A stretch of 38,977 nucleotides of DNA, from positions 1-38,977 of IMG/VR virus record IMGVR_UViG_3300046009_009987; one strand, 5' to 3'. The notes below the pieces were generated by a model. The model ran no database searches, was not told the origin of the DNA, and saw nothing but the letters and a program-made list of their open reading frames with translations. This document shows positions 8,442 through 35,264 of the stretch, piece by piece. Source of the stretch: a virus. How positions within the stretch are numbered: position 1 is the first letter of the stretch; each line of letters begins with the position of its first letter. Made by a program: the position numbers and the translations under genes.

Positions 8442-8741
8442 TTAAATCTCCATATTTTGTAGCATGTCCACCACTATCATCTTAATGCGACTTGCTCGTA
8501 GTGACTGCCTCTCGATTCTGTCAGACAACAACATTGGTGATGGTTCAGACCCAGCAATACCAGTTGCCTCGTTCACTTCTTTGGGCTTGATTACTGGTTG
8601 GAGACGCACTTTCAACTCCATCAAAGATTCCTCAAGACTACTGAGGTTATATCCCAATTCATTCATCATTCTCTCAACACGAGGCTCTTCACTAATTGCT
8701 ACAGTTTTTTCTGTCTTCATTTCTTGACTAGCTTGATACAT
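8442..8741 (-). CDS. Hypothetical coiled-coil protein (99 aa)
   Basis: ATG 8741 with a strong AAGGAG SD. Predicted helical: residues about 22-50 (RVERMMNELGYNLSSLEESL) and 72-99 (LLSDRIERQSLRASRIKMIV) with a Pro-rich linker. It is the first gene of the 8741-7738 operon, facing away from the plus-strand RNA on its right. No domain recognised. Confidence 0.7.
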   Translation of the reverse strand: MYQASQEMKTEKTVAISEEPRVERMMNELGYNLSSLEESLMELKVRLQPVIKPKEVNEATGIAGSEPSPMLLSDRIERQSLRASRIKMIVVDMLQNMEI

Positions 8742-9206
8742 ATTTTCTCCTTTTTATTACTACTACTTAGCACTTGCACCCATCTGCGAAATGGGATCTG
8801 GTTGGTGGCTTAGATTTTGACCTCTAAATTAAGACCCCTGCACCACCTACCTGCTCTATCAATTGATCTATGCAAGTTCCAGATTGGGTGAGTTCAAAAT
8901 AGCAATTTTCTAATTAAAGAAAATCCCCCGAGCTTATTGATTATTCAGCCCCCTCATCCAATCTATTTAATACTTGGTGGTAAGGATTTGCGAGCCTTGT
9001 CACTTCTGAATTATTTCAGTCAGCGTGATCTCAAGGAATCTACTCGTATAGTCACCTTGCATGAACTAGTCCAATAGGTAAAAGGCTAGTTCTCAACCTA
9101 TGTTCCCGATTCTATTCGGCTCACCAAGTACTTCAGCAGTATGAGTGCTGACAAAGAGTGGCTAGAGATAGAAGAAAAGTTTCCCCTATGATTGTAGAAC
9201 TTGGAT

Positions 9207-9290
9207 GCGCCAGTGGCGGAACTGGTAGACGCGAGAGACCGGAAATCTTTTGTACTTACGTACATGCGGGTTCGAGTCCCACCTGGCGCA
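9207..9290 (+). tRNA. Class II tRNA, Leu-type body with GGA anticodon
   Basis: The acceptor stem GCGCCAG/CTGGCGC is perfect and the discriminator is A. The D-arm GCGGAACTGGTAGACGC is the standard bacterial tRNA-Leu arm. The anticodon stem AGAGA/TCTTT carries the loop CCGGAAA, giving anticodon GGA (a Ser anticodon) and C instead of the universal U33. A long variable arm (TGTAC/GTACA) follows. The T-arm GCGGG-TTCGAGT-CCCAC has one C-A mismatch. CCA is not encoded (ACCC follows). Body and discriminator say Leu, the anticodon says Ser. It sits on an 8-bp helix of the larger RNA, so it may be a structural tRNA-like domain rather than a decoder. Confidence 0.8.
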
Positions 9291-9319
9291 CCCTGGTTCT
9301 ACATTTGAAGTGATATTAC

Positions 9320-9413
9320 GGAGAGTTGGCAGAGTGGTTTAATGCACTCGTTTTATAAACGAGCGGGGTGAGTTTAAGAGCCGCCCCCGCAGGTTCAAAT
9401 CCTGTACTCTCCG
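9320..9413 (+). tRNA. Class II tRNA, Ser-type body with UAU anticodon
   Basis: The acceptor GGAGAGT/ACTCTCC has discriminator G, as in tRNA-Ser. The D-arm GCAGAGTGGTTTAATGC and the long variable arm (GGGGTG/CGCCCC, 6 bp) are Ser features too. The anticodon stem CTCGT/ACGAG is perfect and the loop TTTATAA gives UAU, an Ile (AUA) anticodon. The T-arm GCAGG-TTCAAAT-CCTGT is intact. CCA is not encoded. AUA in this phage codes for Ile at conserved hydrophobic positions (for example in the MazG-like EAADII motif), so a seryl-tRNA reading AUA would be harmful. The tRNA is mounted on an 8-bp helix (9307-9314/9418-9425). Confidence 0.8.
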
Positions 9414-9558
9414 CTGTATTACTTCGATATAGTTATTATAGGCTAACATTGATACCAGAGGGGTGCTAGGTGTAAAGAGTTACCATTACACCCTTTTGAA
9501 AAAGGACTAACTCTCTTTACTTTGTAAACTCTGGATGGCTTACCCATCAGCAATGACT

Positions 9559-9588
9559 ACTATAAACAGTAATGATAATAGTTGTCAA
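9559..9588 (-). promoter_or_regulatory. Strong leftward promoter, antisense to the tRNA region
   Basis: Minus strand -35 TTGACA (9588-9583), 18-base spacer, -10 TATAGT (9564-9559). It would transcribe leftward through the antisense of the giant RNA toward the 8741 operon. It may drive that operon with a long leader, or regulate the RNA by interference. The same bases also form an imperfect hairpin. Confidence 0.5.
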
Positions 9589-9643
9589 ATAGCAATTTAT
9601 ATTGAGTAAATACCGAGCTTTTATAATAGAAGGAATTAGTAAG

Positions 9644-10030
9644 TTATAACTTTGCTGGACTCATATACACTATGTTTTCGGTCTTTTTGCGTTCGTTCCA
9701 TCTATGCTTCAAATTCTGCATTTTCTCTTCATAATCACCGCTTACAAGTTCTTCAGCGGGGTACTTATCATCATTCCTTTGCAACTTACCCCTCACTGCT
9801 TTTTCTGGATCAAACCCAAGACTTCTCAGTAGAGTAATTCCAAGCAAGATTATATCCGCTGCCTCACTTGCTACGTCTTCTGCTGGTGCAAGTCCATCAT
9901 GAAAATCAGCTGCTGCAGCTTCTAGTTCTTCAAATTCACCAACTAATAAGACTAAAGACTGCGCCCAGCACTGATTGTTCTCTAATATAAGAGGCCGTTT
10001 ATCTTGCCAGCTAAGTGCGTCTTTAATCAT
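9644..10030 (-). CDS. MazG-like nucleotide pyrophosphohydrolase
   Basis: 128 aa, all-alpha. It has the MazG-type metal-binding signature: GEFEELEAA (E-x2-E), then SEAADIILL (E-x3-D), then KLQRNDDKYPAE (K-x2-RN-x2-KYP). Such phage enzymes hydrolyse NTPs or dNTPs, or alarmone-like nucleotides, to NMP and pyrophosphate, and either clean the pool or dampen host stress signalling. About 30 extra C-terminal residues are basic and unrecognised. Last gene of the lysis cassette, one base after the holin stop. Confidence 0.88.
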   Translation of the reverse strand: MIKDALSWQDKRPLILENNQCWAQSLVLLVGEFEELEAAAADFHDGLAPAEDVASEAADIILLGITLLRSLGFDPEKAVRGKLQRNDDKYPAEELVSGDYEEKMQNLKHRWNERKKTENIVYMSPAKL

Positions 10031-23808: not shown

Positions 23809-26208
23809 TTAGTATTTATCTAAGTTTGCGTACTGTCCTTCATCTCCACTTGCATATACTGTGAAATTATCGTGTGAGTTAAAGTTAGAAGTATTAAATA
23901 ACCCATGCATTGTGTTATTTATAATTCCTGCATCAGATATCGTGAGTTCAGATCCAACAAATGTATTGTTGTAGTAGATTCGATATGCAGTTCCTGATTT
24001 TCTAACTACCAGTTTCGCCGACGCTGAGTATGTAATGGCAGTCGTTGCCAAAGTTGTCCAAGTACCAGCAACGCATTTTTCGGTTCTGATATTGCCGTTT
24101 AGTAGATAAACAAGAACAAAGTTCTGAGGATTACTTACTGAATCGAGATTAAGTACATGTCCAATTTGATATCCAGCTGTAAATATAATTTCAGATGTGA
24201 CAAGAACATTTGCTGTTGAATGAGTAATGTCAGTAAATAGTTCTGATAACGTAAGTGGGGCAGCAGTCACATCATCGACACTACCTGTAGCAGATGTTAA
24301 CGCGTTCACGTCTAAAGAAGTAGCTGTGGCTCTTTGGGTTTCGGTATATGTACCATTAGCTGATCTTGATACGTTTCCAACAGCCCCAACAACTAGTTGG
24401 AATGATCCACCGACATAACCAGATACAGTGAAGGTAGTTCGATACCAAACACCCACTGTTAAAGGTGGTACTGTAGCCGTTAGAAGAGATGTAGCTGCTG
24501 TAGCAGTCGCAACACCTGCTGCAATCGTCCATCCAGTACCTTTAGTCCAGTCAGTATCAGCACCAAACGTACCGTTTACGACTAGATTACTACCTAGATT
24601 TGGAAAATTTAATAACTTACCACCAGATATATACCAAGTGTTGTAGTCACTGATATTAAATGCTCCAAACGTGTTTGATGCAAAAGTTGAGAATAAGCAG
24701 TGATATGTACCAGAAGTGATTGAAGCATCAGATATAGTTCCTGAATAATTGAATGTACCGTTATAGAATACCTGGTATGTTGTTCCAATTTTCTTTACCA
24801 GTAATTGAGCACCAACTGAATACGAAAGTACAGAAGTTCCTAACTGCGTCCATGTACCACTTACTAATTTAGCTATAACTAAATTAGTCCCATCATGGTA
24901 TGCAAACACACCGTTTGTAGGGTTGGCAGGATTATCGACCTGTACTGCTATACCTGCTTGAGTACCAGCTGTTAAAGTTGTAGTACATGCAGCTACGTAG
25001 TTAGTAGATGAATACGTTGTAGGCTGTGATAAAAGTGACGATAAAGTAAGTTGTTTATAGCTCGCATCATCCATATATGCGGTTACAACTGTAGCTCCTG
25101 CCTGAAGGGCAAACGCTCCAGAAGTTGATCCAGTTGCTCTGAAAGTTGCTAATGTTTGATTCCACCCTGTGGCTGAATAATCAACAGACCTAATGACAGT
25201 ACTGCCACCATTTGTTGCAACACCAGTTCGTAAAGTTCCAGCAGCTTCTTTATTAGTCCAGATACTTATTTGATACCAATTTCCAGCAGTTGTTGATGCG
25301 TACTGAAAAATACCATCATTGTTTACTGTTCCTACAAATTTCTGACTTTTTGTACCTCCATGAACAATAGTATTTTCTTCAGATGGAATTACTGAAGCGG
25401 TTGTTTTCGTCCATCCAGGTGCAAGACCCGCAACAAAAGTATTTTCAAAGTCACCATTAGTAGATATTTCACTTCCAAGTGCAGGTGATGGAGATGTAGG
25501 CGTAATTGATATATTAGGAACAAAAGATTGACTTGCTCCACCTGAACCAATACCAGTCGTCTCTGCATGACCTAAGCCATCAGTAACGCCAAACAAACCA
25601 CTAAAACTGTCTGAAGCTAGTGGTGTTGGAAGCCATTTATCTTGAGGCATCTTTATGTAGTCAAGAATATTACCAACTAATCCAGTTGAATAAACGTGGA
25701 CGTTCAAAGCTTGTGCTAGTACGTAGTTGATCGCTAAAAGCTTGTTTTCAGCAAAAAAGAATGTGCCAGTAGCTCTTGTCACCATTGCTAGACGCAATGG
25801 ATAGCTAGGAGCACCATAAACACTGATTCCTGCCCCAATACTCACTATAATGGAAGATCCTGAATTCGAGTATATATATTCAGCAGCACTCAATTGAATT
25901 GATGCGTTATAACCGACTATTGTTATCCCACTTGTTGGCAGTACCCATTTGAGGATTATTCCTTTCTCTCTAGCAAGTGGGGCAGCATACCTAAGAACAG
26001 GATCGCTAACACTACCACCAGCCCTGACTAAATAACCACCAGATGTAGATAGATTGTTACTTGTATCAACGACATTTCTGGCTGGCCCACTAGGTTCAGC
26101 GTTTGTACCATTAACTGCACCTGCTGCACGGTCTGTTGTAAAGTTGTCGTTGAGGAGATACTTTAGCTGATTAAGCGCATTGAATAATCGCCGTCTTTGA
26201 ATTGTCAT
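23809..26208 (-). CDS. Large virion protein with duplicated lectin-like modules (799 aa)
   Basis: Residues about 1-235 form an N-terminal unit without recognised domain. Two similar halves follow. Module A (about 245-400 and again 550-660) starts with EISTNGDFEN or SNLVVNGTFGADTDW and ends near SVDDVT or AYMDDASYK, as in galactose-binding or CBM-like jelly rolls. Module B (about 400-540 and 665-790) contains YHDGTNLVIAKLVSGTWTQL and YLLNGNIRTEKCVAGTWTTL, both followed by YSVGAQLLVKKIGTTYQVFYN or YSASAKLVVRKSGTAYRIYYN, as in LamG/concanavalin-like folds. So the C-terminal 550 residues are a tandem A-B-A-B repeat, probably a sugar-binding surface protein for host recognition. Confidence 0.75.
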   Translation of the reverse strand: MTIQRRRLFNALNQLKYLLNDNFTTDRAAGAVNGTNAEPSGPARNVVDTSNNLSTSGGYLVRAGGSVSDPVLRYAAPLAREKGIILKWVLPTSGITIVGYNASIQLSAAEYIYSNSGSSIIVSIGAGISVYGAPSYPLRLAMVTRATGTFFFAENKLLAINYVLAQALNVHVYSTGLVGNILDYIKMPQDKWLPTPLASDSFSGLFGVTDGLGHAETTGIGSGGASQSFVPNISITPTSPSPALGSEISTNGDFENTFVAGLAPGWTKTTASVIPSEENTIVHGGTKSQKFVGTVNNDGIFQYASTTAGNWYQISIWTNKEAAGTLRTGVATNGGSTVIRSVDYSATGWNQTLATFRATGSTSGAFALQAGATVVTAYMDDASYKQLTLSSLLSQPTTYSSTNYVAACTTTLTAGTQAGIAVQVDNPANPTNGVFAYHDGTNLVIAKLVSGTWTQLGTSVLSYSVGAQLLVKKIGTTYQVFYNGTFNYSGTISDASITSGTYHCLFSTFASNTFGAFNISDYNTWYISGGKLLNFPNLGSNLVVNGTFGADTDWTKGTGWTIAAGVATATAATSLLTATVPPLTVGVWYRTTFTVSGYVGGSFQLVVGAVGNVSRSANGTYTETQRATATSLDVNALTSATGSVDDVTAAPLTLSELFTDITHSTANVLVTSEIIFTAGYQIGHVLNLDSVSNPQNFVLVYLLNGNIRTEKCVAGTWTTLATTAITYSASAKLVVRKSGTAYRIYYNNTFVGSELTISDAGIINNTMHGLFNTSNFNSHDNFTVYASGDEGQYANLDKY

Positions 26209-26210
26209 AA

Positions 26211-27071
26211 CTAGTTATTATCGGCATATAAAATAAGAGTAAACTTTTCAGCACTTGCAGGAGTAAATGCATCCAGTGTTTCCAGTAAAGCATATATTGA
26301 TTTAGTGTTACTTGCTGCCTTGTAAGGTAGTCTTAGGGTTAGATCAATAGATCTACTCATATCACTATTAGTGGTATCAGTAGACGTAATCATTGCTGGC
26401 AGGTCGAAGTAGCCCAAGCGTTTAATACCATCTGCGTATAGATCTTTGTAAGCGACATTATCAACACTGAATGTAGGATCAGTTGCGCTGAATAAATGGA
26501 CTCGGAAACGTGGAGTGATACTCTTCTTATCTGTAGATAGTCTGCATCCCACGATGTACCCAGTACCACCGTTTATGCGGGCTAAATCCGTCATCACCAT
26601 CAAGGAATTGCTTGAAGTAGCATTACTCACCACATCACCAGCTGTATAGGCTGTAGTATCTGAAGGACGAGTAAACTCAGTAGATACCATGTTCATGTTT
26701 CCACCGACTTCACCAAAATGTGATTCAGATGCTCCAGTTCCAGCAGACACGGCGCCAGTACCATTAATGGCGCGAACCATGATAGTGGGAGTACCACTAA
26801 CATAAGCTGAACATCTTACACGAGCTGATAATAAGGCAGAAACATTAGCAAAATAAACACCAGCTGCAGTTATAGAAGTAGCCGGTGTAGCTGAAGATGA
26901 TGGGACTACATTTAGAGTCACCCAGTTTCTACCGTCGACAGTACCTTCAACAAGAAGTGTAGCACTCATGGCGCCAAATACTTGAACTGAAAGGGTATCA
27001 AGGCCAGATACATTTATATCTATGATATCTTGTACTGCAGCTAGTACAGCGTTAGCTTCTTGAATATTCAT
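26211..27071 (-). CDS. Beta-sandwich virion protein (286 aa)
   Basis: Residues about 25-110 (DTLSVQVFGAMSATLLVEGT, DGRNWVTLNVVPSSS, VYFANVSALLSARVRCSAYV) form an Ig-like beta unit as in phage decoration proteins. The rest is beta-rich with a polar middle (SHFGEVGGNMNMVSTEFTRP). A comparable VxGxxDGRxWxxLN element occurs in virion proteins of other phages. ATG 27071 has an AGGACA SD. Position after the beta-helix protein suggests a capsid or tail surface role. Confidence 0.65.
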   Translation of the reverse strand: MNIQEANAVLAAVQDIIDINVSGLDTLSVQVFGAMSATLLVEGTVDGRNWVTLNVVPSSSATPATSITAAGVYFANVSALLSARVRCSAYVSGTPTIMVRAINGTGAVSAGTGASESHFGEVGGNMNMVSTEFTRPSDTTAYTAGDVVSNATSSNSLMVMTDLARINGGTGYIVGCRLSTDKKSITPRFRVHLFSATDPTFSVDNVAYKDLYADGIKRLGYFDLPAMITSTDTTNSDMSRSIDLTLRLPYKAASNTKSIYALLETLDAFTPASAEKFTLILYADNN

Positions 27072-27092
27072 ATAGTATGTCCTAGTAATCTA

Positions 27093-28073
27093 TTAAGCTA
27101 CGTCAACTATTGGCCATAACTTGCCTGAAGCATCAGCAACACCAGTGTAGTAATTCTCGAAGAATCTCAGACCAGTTCCAGCAGTTGCGATAAGCTCTGT
27201 AGTAGTATCTAGTGATGCAACATAGTTATTGGCAACAAAACCTTTTGAGGTTGTGCCTGAACCAGTCAAGAAAATACCGACTGTAGCCCCTGCTGCTCCA
27301 ACTATAATCAATCTATTACTAGAGATTTCTGTACCAAGTAAAATCTTACTTGATAGAGTTACAAACTGACCAGCATCGTTAGTGGCATCTTTCCAAACTT
27401 TATTTTCTCTAAGCTCTAAGCGATTTAAATTACCTAAAATCGAAACAAAAGCATTTTCAGTAGTGGCAAGTCCTCTGTATTTACAATTAATAACTTTCAG
27501 ACCGTCTGCAGCATTATCTGTTGCTCCAGTAACTACAGCACTCAAAAAGTTCAAAATTGTTGAGGTATCATCAAATTCAGAATCTTCTAATCGGAAATCT
27601 TTAGCAGCACCAATTGTATAAGCAGCTGCCACGTTCAAGAAGTTTGCAACATGTAGGAAATTTCTTACAGCAACATTAGCTGCTGAAACGGTAACAGTGG
27701 CTGCAGCTGTACTATAAGTCAAGGTTGGGCGACTTAAGCCGTTTCCAAGACCAATAATTGTTATACCAGCTTTATTTAGGTTCAAGTTACTTGAAGTCAC
27801 AGTCAAAGTAAAGCCAGGTGCAACATAGATAGTGTCATTTCGACCTGCTCTACAAGCAGAAATAGCTGCTGGTAAAGTGGTTTGAATACGTAGTGAGCCA
27901 TCTGGATATGTTGTTTGATATTCATTATAGAATCTTGTATAACCTGGAAAGCTAGTAGGTACAACAATATATAATTGCCCAGTAGTCATAGGAATACTAC
28001 CTGAAGAACCAAGTTCACGTAGTGCTTTTTCAAGCTCGTAATTACTACCTGCTGCCATTGCTGCATTAAACAT
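27093..28073 (-). CDS. Right-handed beta-helix virion protein
   Basis: 326 aa from ATG 28073, which has AGGAG 8 bases upstream; the frame is open to a TTG at 28115, but that would overlap the previous gene. Repeating rungs of about 22-25 residues are visible: DTIYVAPGFTLTV, KAGITIIGLGNG, TVTVSAANVAVRNFLHV, KDFRLEDSEF, DGLKVINCKYRG, NRLELRENKVW, TEISSNRLIIVG. This is the parallel beta-helix (pectin-lyase-like) fold used by tailspikes and some depolymerases. No catalytic motif is obvious. It is encoded just after the capsid gene, which is unusual for a tailspike and suggests a capsid decoration. Confidence 0.75.
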   Translation of the reverse strand: MFNAAMAAGSNYELEKALRELGSSGSIPMTTGQLYIVVPTSFPGYTRFYNEYQTTYPDGSLRIQTTLPAAISACRAGRNDTIYVAPGFTLTVTSSNLNLNKAGITIIGLGNGLSRPTLTYSTAAATVTVSAANVAVRNFLHVANFLNVAAAYTIGAAKDFRLEDSEFDDTSTILNFLSAVVTGATDNAADGLKVINCKYRGLATTENAFVSILGNLNRLELRENKVWKDATNDAGQFVTLSSKILLGTEISSNRLIIVGAAGATVGIFLTGSGTTSKGFVANNYVASLDTTTELIATAGTGLRFFENYYTGVADASGKLWPIVDVA

Positions 28074-28096
28074 ATAAATATCTCCTAAATATTCTA

Positions 28097-28423
28097 CTAA
28101 CCTTGAGCAATCCAACTAATTTGCTCATTAATTACGTTAACATCAGTATCTAAGCCAATAGTGAATCCAGAATCAGAAACCGTAATACCAAGAGTAGTTA
28201 TTAAGGTTCTAGTACCTGCAGCGACTGTTTTGACAGCGCTTGCAGCTGCCATACCCTCAAACCATTCCATTTCATCTCGAGAAGTCACGTTTACAATCCG
28301 AACATGTCTTGGCTTAAAGCCAACCGTAATAGGAATAGCTGCTGCTGTTGCATCTGTAAGGTAGCGACCAACGGAGGTATTAACAATACCGGCTGTGTTT
28401 GTTTGTGTTTGTACTACTGGCAT
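28097..28423 (-). CDS. Small capsid-adjacent protein, possible head decoration (108 aa)
   Basis: Beta-rich protein (PVVQTQTNTAGIVNTSVGRY, HVRIVNVTSRDEMEWFEGMA, TLGITVSDSGFTIGLDTDVN). It follows the major capsid gene and ends 24 bases before the beta-helix gene. ATG 28423 with AAGGA upstream. Similar small beta-rich proteins next to N4-gp56-type capsid genes are often capsid-decorating proteins, but no clear family match is seen. Confidence 0.7.
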   Translation of the reverse strand: MPVVQTQTNTAGIVNTSVGRYLTDATAAAIPITVGFKPRHVRIVNVTSRDEMEWFEGMAAASAVKTVAAGTRTLITTLGITVSDSGFTIGLDTDVNVINEQISWIAQG

Positions 28424-28472
28424 ATTTATATTTCCTTATTTCTAATTAATTTCTATATTACTATCCCGATGT

Positions 28473-29447
28473 TTAAGAATCTGATACACCGTGTTCGATA
28501 CGAACCAATTTGGTCTGGTCTAAAATACGAGCTACGTATGAAGCTTTCCAACCTGAAGTACCACGTTGATCTAGTGGATCTTCTGAACCGCCTGAGCCAA
28601 TTGGCTTAACGATATTTTGTAAAGCTAAACCAGAAATTCTACTTTGGGCATAGGCATTTTTAGCGAATACGATAGTACAGTGAACGTCATTACCGTCTGC
28701 ACCTGAAGCAGCCTTGACTTTAGCGTTGGTTGTTTCAATGAACCGAACTCCAGCCATTGCGCCGACTTCATCTTCCATAACATTACTTTTGTTTGGATAT
28801 TTTTCTACTGGGATAAATCCAGCAGCATCATCAAGATCGAAAGTTGTGTCTTCTGAACAGATAGCCATGAATGAGCGACCAATTGGCACTGTAGCTTGAC
28901 CCGTACTAGCGTCAATCATTTTAGTGATTGGTTTAGCATTAGCACCCTTCAAAGTACGAACAGCAACTTTAACTTCCATACGGTTCAGCTTCATTGCTGA
29001 AGTCACTTCGTTAGTTGCAGTTGCAACTCCGGCATACTGGACGTTAGTACCTGCAGTAACAATGTCACGACAGATTGTATCGAGACTTAAACCAGCCTGC
29101 TCACCAAGCTCACGTGCTGCTTCCATCAAGATTGGGTCGATTGACTCTGTCAAAACTTCATCATCTAAGATCACATAGTCACCATAACGAAGTACCGTAG
29201 CAGTGATGTCAGTTGCTGAAAGAGAAGTACCATTAGGTGTAACCCCTGGACTTAATGGAGTCACATTAGCAGAAAGTGCTGAATATTGACGAAATTTAAT
29301 AACATTAGTACCAGCGTTTTGAGGGATATCACGAACAACTGCGAACATATTATATTTGTATGCAGGGTATGAGGTTTCGATTAACTCACGAGAATAAACA
29401 TTAGACATTTCAGCACTAATTTGTGTACGGCCTGTTAAGGTTGGCAT
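28473..29447 (-). CDS. Major capsid protein, N4-gp56 family
   Basis: 324 aa, within the normal range for this family. Family signatures: an N-arm with ELIETSYPAYKYNMFAV, TNVIKFRQYSALSANVTPLS (the FRxYxALxxxxTPLxxGVTPxG element), TDITATVLRYGDYVILDDEV, LGEQAGLSLDTICRDIV and FIPVEKYPNK. It is the HK97-fold shell subunit of many podovirus-like phages. AAGGAAG precedes ATG 29447. The gene has its own strong promoter (29538-29566) with a terminator between promoter and gene, so its expression is separately tuned for the hundreds of copies needed. Confidence 0.93.
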   Translation of the reverse strand: MPTLTGRTQISAEMSNVYSRELIETSYPAYKYNMFAVVRDIPQNAGTNVIKFRQYSALSANVTPLSPGVTPNGTSLSATDITATVLRYGDYVILDDEVLTESIDPILMEAARELGEQAGLSLDTICRDIVTAGTNVQYAGVATATNEVTSAMKLNRMEVKVAVRTLKGANAKPITKMIDASTGQATVPIGRSFMAICSEDTTFDLDDAAGFIPVEKYPNKSNVMEDEVGAMAGVRFIETTNAKVKAASGADGNDVHCTIVFAKNAYAQSRISGLALQNIVKPIGSGGSEDPLDQRGTSGWKASYVARILDQTKLVRIEHGVSDS

Positions 29448-29466
29448 GGTCTTCCTTTTTATTATA

Positions 29467-29505
29467 CAAAAAAGCGCCTGACTTAGTTAAAAGTTCAGGC
29501 GCTTT
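29467..29505 (-). terminator. Terminator/attenuator between capsid promoter and capsid gene
   Basis: Minus strand AAAGCGCCTGA (29505-29495), loop of 13, TCAGGCGCTTT (29481-29471), followed by TTTTTT. An 11-bp GC-rich stem with a T-tract is a complete rho-independent terminator. It lies about 25 bases downstream of the expected start of the capsid promoter, so every capsid transcript must read through it. It also works on the plus strand. Confidence 0.85.
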
Positions 29506-29537
29506 AGTTTTTCTAATAACGCTATATATATGTGAAT

Positions 29538-29566
29538 AGAATATATATGTATTTATTCTGTGTCAA
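29538..29566 (-). promoter_or_regulatory. Consensus promoter of the major capsid gene
   Basis: Minus strand -35 TTGACA (29566-29561), 17-base spacer, -10 TATTCT (29543-29538). It is the best sigma70-type match in the window. It starts in the intergenic space after the 212-aa gene and points at the capsid gene, implying use of host RNA polymerase. Confidence 0.8.
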
Positions 29567-29575
29567 CAAGCAATT

Positions 29576-30214
29576 CTACAATCTATTCTTGAATGGATTA
29601 CCAGTTCTAGGATCAATACGATTCTCGCTAAACTCTTGACCAGCTCTTTGAGTTCTCATCTGTGAATCACTCCACATCTGATGAATTTGCATTGGTACTA
29701 GTGTCTCAACACCTTTAGGTACAATCACTGTGTAACCATTAATTGTAAAATGTTGGACTGATCCACCTACATGAATATATTCTCTAATACCACGCCTCAT
29801 TATAGTTTTAACAACACCTTCTGGCTGCTCATCTTGTTTAGGAATAAATAAAGGAACTTGAGGTTGTGATTCTAGCTTGCGAAAGATAATACCTTTGCGA
29901 CTATTAAGTATTTTCTCCACCTGCTTCTCCTCAGCTGGATTTGGTTTTTCCTCAATAGTCTCAACTTTTTCAGTTGGTGCTTTTGCTGAACTACCTTTTT
30001 TAATTGTATCAATAATAGCTTGGACTGATGGACGACTACCAATAGACTTCAAAGCATCTTCTGGAAATCCGAGTGCTATAGCTTCTTCTTTGAGTGCCTT
30101 CAGGCTCTTTTCTACTATACCATCAGATGGTTCTACACTTTGCAGACTTACTGTTGGTTCTGTAGGTTGCACTTCACTTGTTGCACCCATTACTGATTTA
30201 GATTGATCTGTCAT
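29576..30214 (-). CDS. Capsid-assembly-associated protein (212 aa)
   Basis: The N-terminal 100 residues are polar and disordered (SVMGATSEVQPTEPTVSLQS) with a short helical piece (ALGFPEDALKSIGSRPSVQAII) like a SAP-like motif. The C-terminal part has strands HFTINGYTVIVPKGVETLVPMQIHQMW and an RTGNPFKNRL end. The xINGYxVxVPKGVExxVP segment is common in small head proteins next to capsid genes. Role in head assembly inferred from position between the scaffold-like gene and the capsid promoter. Confidence 0.65.
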   Translation of the reverse strand: MTDQSKSVMGATSEVQPTEPTVSLQSVEPSDGIVEKSLKALKEEAIALGFPEDALKSIGSRPSVQAIIDTIKKGSSAKAPTEKVETIEEKPNPAEEKQVEKILNSRKGIIFRKLESQPQVPLFIPKQDEQPEGVVKTIMRRGIREYIHVGGSVQHFTINGYTVIVPKGVETLVPMQIHQMWSDSQMRTQRAGQEFSENRIDPRTGNPFKNRL

Positions 30215-30237
30215 ATATTTTCTTTCTTTTTTTGTTG

Positions 30238-30846
30238 TTACTTTCTATTGAGTCCGGCAGCTTTGTACGCTTCCCACTCCTGTTTATTCATCGCCCAAAT
30301 ATCTTTATTTCCGGCAGCATCGTTCGATCTTGTCTGATTACCACCTGCTTGCGTGCCTTTGACTTTTGCAGCAGCAGCACGCTCTTTAGCAGCCCCAATC
30401 CTTTGAGAGTCTTTAGAACTTACAATTGCAGCAATAGCACTCACTGGAATGTTTTTATATGCAGAATGCCCAATAAACTTCATGATTGCTGGCTTGTACT
30501 TTGAATATTCTGGATTATCGACTAAAAAGCCATTAACTTCAATTTCGTCATTTTGTCTCTGAATTTGCTTTTGGATCGGGGTAAGTTGTTTTTGGATTCT
30601 ACTATCGATAGCTTTTCGCTCATCTTCATCCATAGAATCATCATCTTCTTCAGCCTTATCATCAGCTATTTCTTGAGCAGTGCGAACTTCTGGCTCAAGA
30701 GCAGTGAAATCTATTTCACCATCATCTTCAGCAGTGTCTGAAGACTCTTCTTTAGCTTCATTTTCGGTAGATTTATCTACTTGGCCTTCATCGCTAGCTG
30801 TGTCATCAGTGCCAGCACTATTTTCATTGATAATTTCATCTGCCAT
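30238..30846 (-). CDS. Scaffolding-like protein (202 aa)
   Basis: N-terminal 85 residues are extremely acidic (DDGEIDFTALEPEV, KAEEDDDSMDEDERK), followed by a helical region (RIQKQLTPIQKQIQRQNDEI) and a C-terminus with Ala/Gly and a WAMNKQEWEAYKAAGL end. Acidic coiled proteins with a Trp-rich C-terminal helix just before the capsid gene are typical internal scaffolds, which bind capsid through the C-terminus. No protease is visible nearby. Assignment rests on composition and position. Confidence 0.72.
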   Translation of the reverse strand: MADEIINENSAGTDDTASDEGQVDKSTENEAKEESSDTAEDDGEIDFTALEPEVRTAQEIADDKAEEDDDSMDEDERKAIDSRIQKQLTPIQKQIQRQNDEIEVNGFLVDNPEYSKYKPAIMKFIGHSAYKNIPVSAIAAIVSSKDSQRIGAAKERAAAAKVKGTQAGGNQTRSNDAAGNKDIWAMNKQEWEAYKAAGLNRK

Positions 30847-30873
30847 AGTGGTTTTTCCTTTCTAGGGCTATTA

Positions 30874-31185
30874 CTATTTTTTCCTCATTGTCTCTATAGT
30901 ATCATACGGATCTGCAGAATTACTGCTTTGATCAACTAAACTCATGCGATTTATGACATCGTGTGGTAATTTCTTAAGTTCACGGTATGCAACAATCTGT
31001 GCTCGCATTCTATTCAGCTCATCAGAATCTTGGTACGAACCATCAATAATTTTATTCATTATCTCTTGAATATTCAGATCAAGAATCAAATTAATTTGAA
31101 TACAAGCATCTGAAGCAAGATAGTTCTTGAAAGTATTTACGACTAATTGATCACTTCCATCTTTTCTGTAATCTGGAAATTGCAT
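30874..31185 (-). CDS. Hypothetical head-module protein (103 aa)
   Basis: Helical protein (VNTFKNYLASDACIQINLIL, LNRMRAQIVAYRELKKLPHD) ending ADPYDTIETMRKK. It begins one base after the portal stop and precedes the scaffold-like gene. Unrecognised. Confidence 0.7.
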   Translation of the reverse strand: MQFPDYRKDGSDQLVVNTFKNYLASDACIQINLILDLNIQEIMNKIIDGSYQDSDELNRMRAQIVAYRELKKLPHDVINRMSLVDQSSNSADPYDTIETMRKK

Positions 31186-31186
31186 A

Positions 31187-33187
31187 TTATCCTGCAGCCA
31201 TCTGGCTAGGCTTTACTTGAGTTGGTTGTTTAATTTGCTGATACTGTGGATTAGGTGATCCATCCTGCTGAAATTGAGCACTTGACTGATCTTGAGGGAA
31301 CATTTCTGGGTTAGTCTTTTTGAGCAGTAAAGCTTGCTGATGCTCTATCCTATGAGCCTGTGTAGCTGGCGTTTCTTTAGCTTTAGCTAATATTTCGAGG
31401 TGAACATTGTGATCATCTTCTGCATTGGTAGCAACGTATTGATTCTCTGAAAGTCTCTCGTTCTCAATTTCAGCCATACGCTCATCAATTGTCATTGGGA
31501 ACAAACGATCAAGTTCATCTTTAGCCAAGCCAAATAAACGACCAAGCTTTTTAAACCCATATCTTTTATTAGTATTAGGGTCTTGAGCAACGTAGGTAAG
31601 AAACTCAGCAAAAGACCGTCTTTCCTCTATTTTAAGCGCCCGACTTACATTTTTTGAAAGTATCTTAATATCAGGATCTAATTTACAAATTATACTTTTG
31701 CGATCAAGAGGACGCCACTTAGCACCGAAAGCACCAACAATTCTGACAATCTTCTCATCGATATCTTCAGCAAAGAAATCTTTATACAGCTGATACCACT
31801 GGAACCAAAACTCTCTTTCACTCCAGCCAAATATCTTTGCTGATAGTGAATAACGTGTGTCTGTACGAGCTGCAATGATATTGGTCTCACCAAGTGGACG
31901 ATCTTTTTCTGACTGAATACCCTGTTGGATATCTGGTGTTGCTGTAGCTTTCTCTGCAGACATGGCCAAAGAGTTCATAATGAAATCAACTAACTGCAAA
32001 TTAGGATTAACTTTATTCAGCGGGGTAATAGCACCCATGATACTTTTGCGATCAGTGCCATCAATGCCAACAAAATTACTAGTACCTTCAAGATCCTTAC
32101 GACTAATACCCATAGAGGTGTCATAAGCATACTTAGGATCTAAATCCTGTTTCATATACCTAATACCTAAGTTTATCGCGATTGCTCTAGCTCTTTGCTT
32201 ATCTTCAGTCATGTCAGGAATTGATGTACCTCTCCAATCGTGTGAATGTGGATAAAGAGAACGCTTCACTAATGGCCAGTATTTTTTTTCAATCAATTTA
32301 ATGCCAAGTACTTTTGATCGATCATTAGCAAGCCAGACTTTAACTTTACTGATCTTTCCGGCAAACATAGTATGCGTATACCATACAGTTACTTGATACC
32401 GATGATTATCACCAAGACTTTTAACCTGGTCTTTGGTTGTATTGCCAAGGTTCTGAGCGTTGTTCCTAGCCTCTTGCGCGTCATAGAGTAAAGATTGTGC
32501 AGTTGATGTATTACTCAGCTCTGAAAAGTCACCTGTTTTTATTGATGGGAATATATGTTCGTTATCAAGTATCTCTTGTTTAGTAATGCCTATTTCATAT
32601 CCCATAAAACGAGCAGCGCCAGTGCCACGTTTGTCTCGGCCATTAATACTAGTAGCTTCTGGATCACGTAAAAATGTTAGTGGATCAATCACCGAGGGCA
32701 TTGGATAGAACTCATTGTTATCTGCATCACGATAGTACTGCTCCATGTCAACAATACCCCAGCCAAAAAAACAAGTATCAAAGTCCCAATCAAAATCTAC
32801 CTGGTCTTTCATCATCTCATCATAATCAAAATCTGCTACCGCATCTAAATTGTCAGCTGTTTCTTCATCACCTTCTTCACGACCATCAAACTCTGCAGCT
32901 AACCGATCATCATACAGAGATGCGAGAACCGTCCAGAATACCGAAAACATCGTAGTATCGCCAACTGCTTCTTTATCTCGGCGTTGATTGTTGAATAATT
33001 TAAGACGTAGGTAGGCTTCGTCTTTTTCAGGCTGTTGGTGCTTCCAAGCTGCTGTCCACTCATTAGCAATTTGATCTGCTAGCTGCGTATAGTCATCTGA
33101 AGATACTGATTTTTTTTTATCATCATCATCAACAGAAATATCTATTTTTTCTGATGTTTCATCATAATCTGATTTTTTATCAATCAT
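31187..33187 (-). CDS. Portal protein
   Basis: 666 aa, in the size range of podovirus-type portals. After an acidic Lys/Asp-rich N-terminus, a helical clip/stem region has WFTVWTVLASLYDDRLAAEF-like residues (MFSVFWTVLASLYDDRLAAE), then FDWDFDTCFFGWGIVDMEQY, and VIDPLTFLRDPEATSING, the DPxxFxxDP portal signature. Later KRSLYPHSHDWRGTSIPDM, then TRYSLSAKIFGWSEREFWFQ in the wing. The C-terminal 60 residues are Gln-rich (HRIEHQQALLLKKTNPEM). It forms the 12-mer ring for DNA passage. It directly follows the two small genes after TerL, the usual packaging order. Confidence 0.85.
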   Translation of the reverse strand: MIDKKSDYDETSEKIDISVDDDDKKKSVSSDDYTQLADQIANEWTAAWKHQQPEKDEAYLRLKLFNNQRRDKEAVGDTTMFSVFWTVLASLYDDRLAAEFDGREEGDEETADNLDAVADFDYDEMMKDQVDFDWDFDTCFFGWGIVDMEQYYRDADNNEFYPMPSVIDPLTFLRDPEATSINGRDKRGTGAARFMGYEIGITKQEILDNEHIFPSIKTGDFSELSNTSTAQSLLYDAQEARNNAQNLGNTTKDQVKSLGDNHRYQVTVWYTHTMFAGKISKVKVWLANDRSKVLGIKLIEKKYWPLVKRSLYPHSHDWRGTSIPDMTEDKQRARAIAINLGIRYMKQDLDPKYAYDTSMGISRKDLEGTSNFVGIDGTDRKSIMGAITPLNKVNPNLQLVDFIMNSLAMSAEKATATPDIQQGIQSEKDRPLGETNIIAARTDTRYSLSAKIFGWSEREFWFQWYQLYKDFFAEDIDEKIVRIVGAFGAKWRPLDRKSIICKLDPDIKILSKNVSRALKIEERRSFAEFLTYVAQDPNTNKRYGFKKLGRLFGLAKDELDRLFPMTIDERMAEIENERLSENQYVATNAEDDHNVHLEILAKAKETPATQAHRIEHQQALLLKKTNPEMFPQDQSSAQFQQDGSPNPQYQQIKQPTQVKPSQMAAG

Positions 33188-33188
33188 A

Positions 33189-33557
33189 TTAGTTTGCTTT
33201 GTCTACTTTATCTCTAACAGACTCAAACATGGCTACGTTCTGCTTTTGCTTCTCATCAATCTCATTTTCGCCACGCAACATATCAATTGTAGTTGCAGCA
33301 CCAGCATAACACATTTGCGTAACTTCGTTAATTATCTGATTAGTATGTACACTCTGTCCAGCATCTAAAGTCACTATAAAATGGCCACTATACATTTGAC
33401 CATTCCAGATCACATCCCATACAAAAATCTCATTATCAAACAATCGACTTATGATTGTTCCATCTTTATATCCAACCATTTCTAACATTTTATACCGATC
33501 ACTTTTTATTTTTTTATGTGGTATCTGATCATGAAACTCTTGTTTTTTCTTTTTCAT
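33189..33557 (-). CDS. Hypothetical protein between terminase and portal (122 aa)
   Basis: Very basic N-terminus (MKKKKQEFHDQIPHKKIKSD) then a beta-rich body (GTIISRLFDNEIFVWDVIWN, MYSGHFIVTLDAGQSVHTNQ) and helical tail. Coupled to the DUF2292-like gene by ATGA. No domain recognised. In other phages this slot often holds small head-completion or packaging-assisting genes. Confidence 0.72.
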   Translation of the reverse strand: MKKKKQEFHDQIPHKKIKSDRYKMLEMVGYKDGTIISRLFDNEIFVWDVIWNGQMYSGHFIVTLDAGQSVHTNQIINEVTQMCYAGAATTIDMLRGENEIDEKQKQNVAMFESVRDKVDKAN

Positions 33558-33760
33558 AGTACAACCTCAATATCCCTTATCAAAATACTTTTTTGCGACT
33601 GTAAACGTGTAATGTCGCCATTATACTTATGTATTGTAATCTCTCCGAATGTTATTTTTCTTAGCTCCTGAATTAAAGCAGCTTCCTCTTGAGATATTCT
33701 ATAGAGTTTAAAAATCTTCGGCACGTGTGGGATCAATGGTTCATTTGTCATATGGGTCAT
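33554..33760 (-). CDS. DUF2292-like small protein (about 68 aa)
   Basis: The C-terminal part reads ISQEEAALIQELRKITFGEITIHKYNGDI, the pattern of the small bacterial family DUF2292 (E-x-EL-x3-LR-x-I-x-FGE-x-TI). Function is unknown; these proteins occur singly in Gram-positive bacteria and phages. The frame overlaps the TerL end by about 20 bases; two ATGs (33760 and 33751) are possible and neither has a clear SD, so translation is probably coupled to TerL. A TTG at 33775 also keeps the frame open but is less likely. Confidence 0.65.
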   Translation of the reverse strand: MTHMTNEPLIPHVPKIFKLYRISQEEAALIQELRKITFGEITIHKYNGDITRLQSQKSILIRDIEVVL

Positions 33761-35264
33761 AATTAGTTTTAACAATAATTGGCCTATTGTCTACTATAAC
33801 AGGTGCTTTGTAGTTTATGGCAAAGTATTCTGTGGCAGTGCGCGGGTGTGATGTCCAGTTATGTATAGGCTTGGTAATCTCATTAGTACTCTGTGATGTT
33901 TCTGTTTTCTGAGGAAATCTAGCCTCCTGCATTGCTTCAATCCATCGATTAGTCAATATATTTTCATTTACATCAACACCACTTCTAAGCATCAATCTGG
34001 TAGCCTGTAACCTCTCATAAAAAGAATTGCTGATAGTATTAGTCTGTACATAAATACCATTGTCTTGTAATACTTTCCTGGTACTGATCTTATCGACAGT
34101 CTGATATGCTCTTTTCTCTACGTCTGGATCACCATAATGAATTGCCGGCTTCCAATTCCTCACACCAGCTATTAGTGCCAGATCAAGCTCTGAGTAGCTA
34201 AACTTAGAATCAATATCTTTACCAAACAGAGGTAAAAAGAACTGAATGGGCTGATTTTCTGTTGCGTAAGCCTGTACAAGCCTCTTTCTGCCGGTTATTT
34301 CATCGGGCTGCCACCATTGTATAGCTGTACCATCAAGCCCAAAATCCCATGCTACATACAGTGGCCATGATGGATTGTAGGGGAATGCACCCATCCTTAC
34401 CTGCAATATCTCTGGGTAGACAATACCAACCAGCGCCGTGTTCCAATTACGCTTAATCTCACGATTAAAGTCGTCAGTAGACCTACGCTCACGCTCTCGA
34501 GCTTCCCAATTAGCATCTTTGCGTGGATCTTGAGTAGAATCAATCTCTATGATCTTTATTTTTTCACCATCCTTACCAAACCGTAAGCGCTTTGCTTTAC
34601 CTGGCTTTATTCCTGGAGTAGTAAGAATAATACGACAGTTACTAGTATCTGCAGTTGAACCCCAAGCGCTAGTATCATTCTCCCAAAAAGCAAACTCATC
34701 CATGAGTATTGCAGTTCTACGACTACCCCGAGAGAAGTTAGGATTACTTGATTCACCTGATATTGAGTTTCCATTTTCAGGATTGTAGAGCTTCATAAAA
34801 GCAAAGTTCTTTTTTGCATTAAAACCTTTAGGAAGCATAAATGGTGGTAAATGATTGATAAAAAACTCTATTTTTCCAAATAAAGATTCTTCTTTAGTGG
34901 ATTTCACGTTATCTGAATTACCAAAACGATTATCTACATACTCTTCTTTCCGTGAACCAAGAAGAAAATTAGTATCAGGCACATACAGCCAGAACCAAGT
35001 GAAAACTGCCAAAATGGTGTATGTAGCGCCCACGTCACGAGACTTATCTACAAAGATATCTTCACCATATTCAATAGCATGACGAACTTCCTCAATGAGT
35101 TTCTCCTGAAATGGAAAAGGCACAAATGGTAATGTTGATGGCTTGACCCGAGGGTCAAACGTCCAGAGCCAATACTTACAGAAGTCAACAGGATTACTCT
35201 TACCCTGCTTAACGCGTTTTTTAAGCAGTTCTACCTGCTCTTTTGTATACTCAAGTTTCTGCAT
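33741..35264 (-). CDS. Terminase large subunit
   Basis: About 507 aa from ATG 35264 (an in-frame GTG at 35282 gives 6 more residues). N-terminal ATPase: Walker A-like KSRDVGATYTIL (about residues 77-88), Walker B ILMDEFAFWEND with the catalytic Glu, and motif III ILTTPGI. C-terminal nuclease: AWDFGLDGTAIQWW (first Asp) and HYGDPDVEKRAY region. This is the packaging motor that also cuts the DNA. It overlaps the small subunit by 14 bases, which is standard. Confidence 0.92.
   Translation of the reverse strand: MQKLEYTKEQVELLKKRVKQGKSNPVDFCKYWLWTFDPRVKPSTLPFVPFPFQEKLIEEVRHAIEYGEDIFVDKSRDVGATYTILAVFTWFWLYVPDTNFLLGSRKEEYVDNRFGNSDNVKSTKEESLFGKIEFFINHLPPFMLPKGFNAKKNFAFMKLYNPENGNSISGESSNPNFSRGSRRTAILMDEFAFWENDTSAWGSTADTSNCRIILTTPGIKPGKAKRLRFGKDGEKIKIIEIDSTQDPRKDANWEARERERRSTDDFNREIKRNWNTALVGIVYPEILQVRMGAFPYNPSWPLYVAWDFGLDGTAIQWWQPDEITGRKRLVQAYATENQPIQFFLPLFGKDIDSKFSYSELDLALIAGVRNWKPAIHYGDPDVEKRAYQTVDKISTRKVLQDNGIYVQTNTISNSFYERLQATRLMLRSGVDVNENILTNRWIEAMQEARFPQKTETSQSTNEITKPIHNWTSHPRTATEYFAINYKAPVIVDNRPIIVKTNYDPYDK

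Follow-up and report, generated by a model that had tools for sequence, protein, structure and literature searches.

The window, the whole stretch of DNA that was analysed, comprises a 38,977-base virus record that encodes a capsid protein (phrog_1357) and a terminase. According to the list of open reading frames, nearly all of its convincing genes lie on the minus strand. A 902-nt stretch without convincing genes (8742-9643), located between two minus strand genes, is the site of a proposed large RNA on the plus strand, an orientation that opposes the direction of the phage genes. The only open reading frames in this stretch were short, overlapping plus strand frames that enter it from 8464-8813. 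One flanking minus strand gene (8442-8741) encodes a 99-residue protein that matched no family, while the other (9644-10030) encodes a 128-residue protein with a weak MazG-like match (PF12643, E 9.7e-5) that falls below the family cut-off. A 9.9-kb metagenome contig (L002) was 99.8% identical to positions 25143-35088 of the window, indicating that the same phage recurs.

A weak promoter-like site on the plus strand, TTGATA-16-TATTAC (8733-8760), was recognized by eye and could place a transcription start near 8767. The promoter scan did not report this site, which is a suggestion only, and found no clear plus strand promoter or terminator. The best promoter-like site, TTGACA-18-TATAGT (11/12), was on the minus strand (9588-9559), from where it would drive leftward transcription through the RNA in antisense.

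Two tRNA modules on a three-way junction

The original prediction located two tRNA cores on the plus strand, and ARAGORN and Infernal found both at exactly the predicted positions. tRNA 1 (9207-9290, 46.4 bits) has a class II body judged by eye to be of the tRNA-Leu type, with A73, while tRNA 2 (9320-9413, 57.9 bits) has a class II body judged in the same way to be of the tRNA-Ser type, with G73. Both cores exceeded the gathering score of the tRNA family (RF00005), the match covering the whole cloverleaf (model positions 1-71). Neither tRNA encodes CCA. In both, the discriminator forms a pair with the base that precedes the acceptor stem (U9206-A9290 and C9319-G9413), and the acceptor stems of tRNA 1 and tRNA 2 continue into helices designated B and C, respectively. 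When tRNA 1 was folded alone, in a calculation without tertiary contacts, a rod (-33.1 kcal/mol) was favoured over the cloverleaf (-27.5 kcal/mol).

The two cores had been proposed to be mounted on a perfect three-way junction of helices A, B and C. Helix A was real and one pair longer than predicted (9185-9192/9435-9442, one G-U pair), although with a pair probability of 0.69 it was the weakest of the three. Helix B (pair probability 0.97) was also found, but its 9 bp (9193-9201/9295-9303) exceeded the predicted length, and two further pairs (9203-9204/9292-9293) carried the pairing to the acceptor stem of tRNA 1. Similarly, helix C (pair probability 0.97) was present, but with 12 bp (9305-9316/9416-9427, three of them G-U) instead of 8. 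Helices A and B abut with no gap, as predicted, whereas B and C were separated by 1 nt rather than 3. Since a gap of 7 nt also separates C from A, the term 'perfect' slightly overstates the geometry. Nevertheless, unconstrained folding yielded all three helices (-103.9 kcal/mol, z -6.6, 0/200 shuffles), and the anatomy of the junction is both real and unusual.

The non-random nature of the arrangement that holds the tRNAs was borne out by shuffling the flanking sequences while the tRNA cores were kept fixed. The energy of the real sequence was -107.9 kcal/mol, compared with a mean of -84.6 kcal/mol (sd 3.2) for the shuffled flanks (z -7.2, 0/1000), and flanking helices of at least 9 and at least 12 bp occurred jointly in 8 of 600,000 flank shuffles. 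The original statement that such an arrangement is foreign to ordinary tRNA genes was too strong. A flanking helix of at least 8 bp was found in ~3% of 393 other tRNAs in the fetched contigs, so a single long arm is unremarkable, but two adjacent arms closed by a third helix are much rarer than a single arm. The counts of G-U versus A-C across the long arms, 13 and 12, did not distinguish the strands.

The anticodons do not match the bodies that carry them. The anticodon loop of tRNA 1, CCGGAAA, has the serine anticodon GGA, and C33 replaces the U33 expected of an elongator tRNA. Its codon, TCC, is rare in the phage (27 codons). The anticodon of tRNA 2 is UAU (loop UUUAUAA, with U33 present), corresponding to the isoleucine codon AUA, which is frequent (245 codons). 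Relatives had I, L or V at 63% of the positions aligned with AUA codons of the phage, and a recoding of AUA to serine was rejected. On these alignments, the 245 AUA codons would be misread by a tRNA carrying serine, which would harm rather than help the phage. Long tRNAs other than Leu, Ser or Tyr accounted for 19 of the 580 in the fetched loci, duplicates counted, and a stand-alone serine-type tRNA(UAU) with an encoded CCA was found in a 45-kb phage contig (L261:1240-1334). Because odd class II tRNAs exist elsewhere, the odd anticodons are supporting rather than decisive evidence. Two tRNA-rich phage contigs carried tRNA-Ile(UAU) whose variable arms were long, whose length was 91-94 nt and whose CCA was encoded (L008:7128-7218 and L016:1170-1263); these were not of the serine type.

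Pairing between the leader and the 3'-end of a precursor inhibits RNase P of E. coli by acting on a conformational step that the enzyme requires, but natural E. coli precursors with such pairing exist, and RNase P copes with some of them and can unwind extended stems (PMC9433436). With extended acceptor stems, a -1 base paired with the discriminator and no CCA, both modules would be expected to be handled poorly by RNase P and in 3' maturation. Taken with C33 in tRNA 1, these features of the sequence lead us to argue that the modules may be structural or slowly released.

Structure outside the junction

The complete 8742-9643 stretch folded far better than shuffled sequences (z -8.4, 0/20 shuffles). 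The upstream part begins with a hairpin (8800-8851, pair probabilities 0.82-0.96), followed by a 12-bp helix, AGAUUGGGUGAG/CUCAUCCAAUCU (8881-8892/8953-8964, pair probability 0.98), that encloses a 60-nt loop containing an inner hairpin. Adjacent to it is a tRNA-free domain with a four-way junction (8969-9132, -51.4 kcal/mol, z -5.15, 0/200), for which the centroid and minimum free energy structures were the same. This domain consists of a 9-bp closing helix (8971-8979/9122-9130), a long coaxial arm (8980-9060) and hairpins at 9063-9092 and 9106-9119. On the opposite strand the z-score was only -3.3 and the long arm was gone, a difference that favours an RNA on the tRNA strand. The hairpin stem 9063-9071/9084-9092 presents a loop sequence, AUAGGU (9074-9079), that is complementary by eye to ACCUAU (9096-9101), a possible pseudoknot or loop-strand contact. 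An intramolecular pseudoknot at 9063-9101 would be tight, with a connection of just 3 nt. On the 3' side of the junction there is a 10-bp hairpin, CAGAGGGGUG/CACCCUUUUG (9456-9498, pair probability 0.99).

Since the structure reaches a tRNA-free upstream domain, the original description of the tRNAs as domains of one large RNA was reasonable. When the tRNA junction was removed, the remainder had a z-score of -3.0, while genuine ROOL and GOLLD treated alike gave -1.3 and -1.2 to -1.7, respectively. With genuine members so close to chance, the folding energy by itself is no proof for or against an RNA of this kind. Both strands of the region folded better than chance.

Searches for related RNAs

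The original prediction had also raised the possibility that the RNA belongs to GOLLD or ROOL. The setting is that of GOLLD, which is found in phages or prophages beside or around tRNA genes, in that the window is a virus record with a capsid and a terminase gene and the tRNAs lie inside the element. Membership, however, was not borne out. The GOLLD (RF02032) and ROOL (RF03087) models gave no match at E values up to 10 with permissive filters, although the same searches detected GOLLD in two tRNA-rich phage contigs (316 and 213 bits) and ROOL in plasmid pMP118 (130 bits). Outside the tRNA cores, no match among 4227 Rfam families reached its gathering score, and at a relaxed threshold the sole credible match around the site was tRNA. 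One phage contig rich in tRNAs (G003) carries a GOLLD (L048:1501-1962) that contains a complete tRNA-Lys(CTT) at 1826-1899, held on its own stem, UGGAGCAG/CUGCUCCG, within the GOLLD match. A large RNA with an internal tRNA is thus of a known kind, and phage tRNAs sometimes sit in the linker of GOLLD, which forms a multimeric RNA cage (PMC12286853). The stacking of two acceptor stems on carrying helices at a single junction was not seen there.

No homolog of the RNA was found by DNA similarity, protein baits, tRNA-pair patterns or a covariance model. The DNA matches in phage records were to tRNA parts or to chance only, and the MazG-like protein, a tail protein and an endolysin retrieved no relatives when used as baits. 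The capsid protein retrieved phage contigs at 40-65% identity together with bacterial bins, the nearest including candidate-phyla (CPR) bacteria. The phages related through the capsid have structural genes in common with the window but not its left part, and none of 41 records or genomes from this group held a sequence relative of the RNA. Likewise, 380 genomes from the phylum of a Parcubacteria bin held no relative of the RNA; 12 weak, short matches were taken as chance. The tRNA-pair patterns returned ordinary tRNA arrays, the lone serine-type tRNA of L261 and, in L272, an apparent tRNA-Leu split by an intron. A covariance model of 8969-9132 built from one sequence (R1) found only the window. 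A candidate at L113:14940-15067 (E 0.18) was rejected, as it was inside the reading frame of a probable tail protein, and another in the 380 genomes (E 0.0027) was at chance level.

A sister contig (G023), whose capsid protein is 62% identical, carries on its minus strand (L244:18671-19212) two tRNAs within one long closing helix, a structured upstream part and copies of TTGACAATT repeated around the tRNAs (z -2.6). A gene-like frame of 79 residues overlaps the part that follows the second tRNA, leaving only ~541 nt non-coding.

Several other phage contigs had structured stretches of their own. In G025, an 849-nt stretch (L247:17406-18254, z -3.3 to -3.8) without open reading frames of 70 residues includes an arm of ~25 bp; it had neither a tRNA nor an Rfam match and may be another large RNA. 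A 538-nt stretch of G036 (L258:7453-7990) likewise had no reading frames of 70 residues, and its minus strand had a z-score of -5.5. G031 has a single long tRNA-like sequence (L071:5117-5205), its anticodon loop odd, next to a G+C-rich hairpin; the 653-nt stretch around them has z-scores of -3.5 on the plus and -5.4 on the minus strand.

Interpretation and comparison with known RNAs

The best explanation of the locus, in which our confidence is evenly balanced, is a structured non-coding phage RNA of ~0.75-0.9 kb that carries two tRNA-like modules. The plus strand would be transcribed against the direction of the genes to give an RNA in which the multi-helix region (8800-9132) is followed by the three-way junction and then by the hairpin. 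The junction would bear two tRNA-shaped modules of class II, their acceptor stems stacked on helices of 9 to 12 bp, and these modules would most likely be retained as architectural or tRNA-mimicking domains, or perhaps be slowly released. The role may resemble that of GOLLD or ROOL, presumably that of a structural RNA made during infection.

Several observations point to a structured RNA: the arms are non-random relative both to flank shuffles and to other tRNAs, the upstream domain folds well with no tRNA in it and better on the tRNA strand, and the remainder without the junction departs from chance no less than genuine ROOL and GOLLD do. There is also a precedent, the tRNA on its own closing stem in a true GOLLD, while tRNA 1 lacks U33, neither tRNA has CCA, a serine-type tRNA acting on AUA would be harmful, and the inhibition of E. 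coli RNase P by leader pairing (PMC9433436) points in the same direction. Counted against a structured RNA were the failure of the searches to find a homolog, and hence any covariation, the lack of a clear plus strand promoter or terminator in the scan, with the best promoter-like site on the minus strand, and the absence of strand bias in the G-U and A-C counts. In addition, RNase P tolerates some such pairing in natural precursors (PMC9433436), and tRNA 2, with its intact U33 loop and 245 AUA codons to read, could decode.

The last two points belong equally to the main rival, an unusual but ordinary pre-tRNA, which we regard as quite possible though on balance doubtful. The locus would then be a phage precursor of two tRNAs in which the paired leader and trailer perhaps aid folding, the processing enzymes open them, the released tRNAs decode and the upstream fold is unrelated. 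Such a precursor would account for cores that score above the tRNA threshold and for the abundance of AUA; extended stems can be unwound by RNase P (PMC9433436), ~3% of the tRNAs in other contigs have comparable flanking helices of at least 8 bp, and the CCA-bearing tRNA of L261 means that an odd anticodon alone is no proof that decoding has been lost. It is harder to reconcile with 9- and 12-bp flanking helices closed by a third, a combination far from chance, with C33 and the missing CCA of tRNA 1, the rarity of its codon, or the misreading of isoleucine codons by a serine-type body.

An element acting at the level of DNA, such as an origin, an attachment site or a regulatory region, in which the inverted repeats function in the DNA and the tRNA sequences are passengers, is improbable. 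It would be compatible with the folding of both strands and with the good minus strand promoter-like site at the edge of the region, but less so with an upstream domain that folds better on the tRNA strand and loses its long arm on the other. Attachment sites usually hold 3' fragments of tRNAs, whereas both tRNAs here are complete, and there was no integrase among the scanned proteins, a subset of the open reading frames. It is highly improbable that the RNA truly belongs to GOLLD or ROOL but has diverged beyond recognition by the Rfam models. Its setting (a phage, beside tRNAs, 0.6-0.9 kb) is the same, GOLLD can contain a tRNA, as in L048 and in the linker tRNAs (PMC12286853), and the linker of a 659-nt ROOL, at 414-464, is near the division seen here (~425 nt, the insert and 200 nt), a comparison of sizes and not of helix order. 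Nevertheless, true members score 130-316 bits in searches where the window gave no match, and the ~200 nt that follow the tRNAs are short relative to the 416-position GOLLD model.

In its boldest form, the structured RNA reading would make this a giant phage RNA of a new class, one that has taken in tRNA folds for good as structural parts. The two modules, their anticodons useless or misleading and their acceptor stems locked on the junction, would then serve as rigid L-shaped arms or as a decoy that looks like tRNA; we consider this rather unlikely. To our knowledge, no function has been established for GOLLD or ROOL, nor is it clear why they accompany tRNAs. If an unrelated RNA rigidly builds in two tRNA folds, that association would be part of the mechanism, and the junction RNA would be a compact object for testing whether the tRNAs are releasable cargo or structure. 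Even as no more than an unusual precursor, it would illustrate the degree to which a phage can hold back the release of its tRNAs.

The cores resemble those of phage class II tRNA genes (RF00005) in scoring above the cut-off, with complete cloverleaves and long variable arms. They differ in the mismatch between body and anticodon (Leu-type with GGA, Ser-type with UAU), in C33 of tRNA 1, in the absence of CCA and in the 9- to 12-bp helices that prolong the acceptor stems. The element of G023 is likewise in a related phage, with two tRNAs inside a closing helix and structure upstream. However, it has no detectable sequence homology to the RNA of the window, its tRNAs (Ala TGC and Met CAT) are not individually extended, and it lies on the same strand as the genes. 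Given its weaker fold and a 3' flank that looks coding, we regard it as analogous rather than homologous.

ROOL, an RNA of ~0.55-0.66 kb from phages, prophages and plasmids, consists of an upstream domain and a smaller 3' part on either side of a linker, a layout with which the RNA described here agrees roughly in size. There was, however, no covariance match to ROOL, and the ROOL example that was fetched (L046) has no tRNA. GOLLD is also a large structured RNA of phages and prophages that occurs near tRNA genes and can hold a tRNA on its own stem. In the GOLLD of L048, unpaired spacers suspend the tRNA in the stem, whereas here two modules are mounted on a single junction, their acceptor stems run almost directly into the helices that carry them and the 3' part is short.
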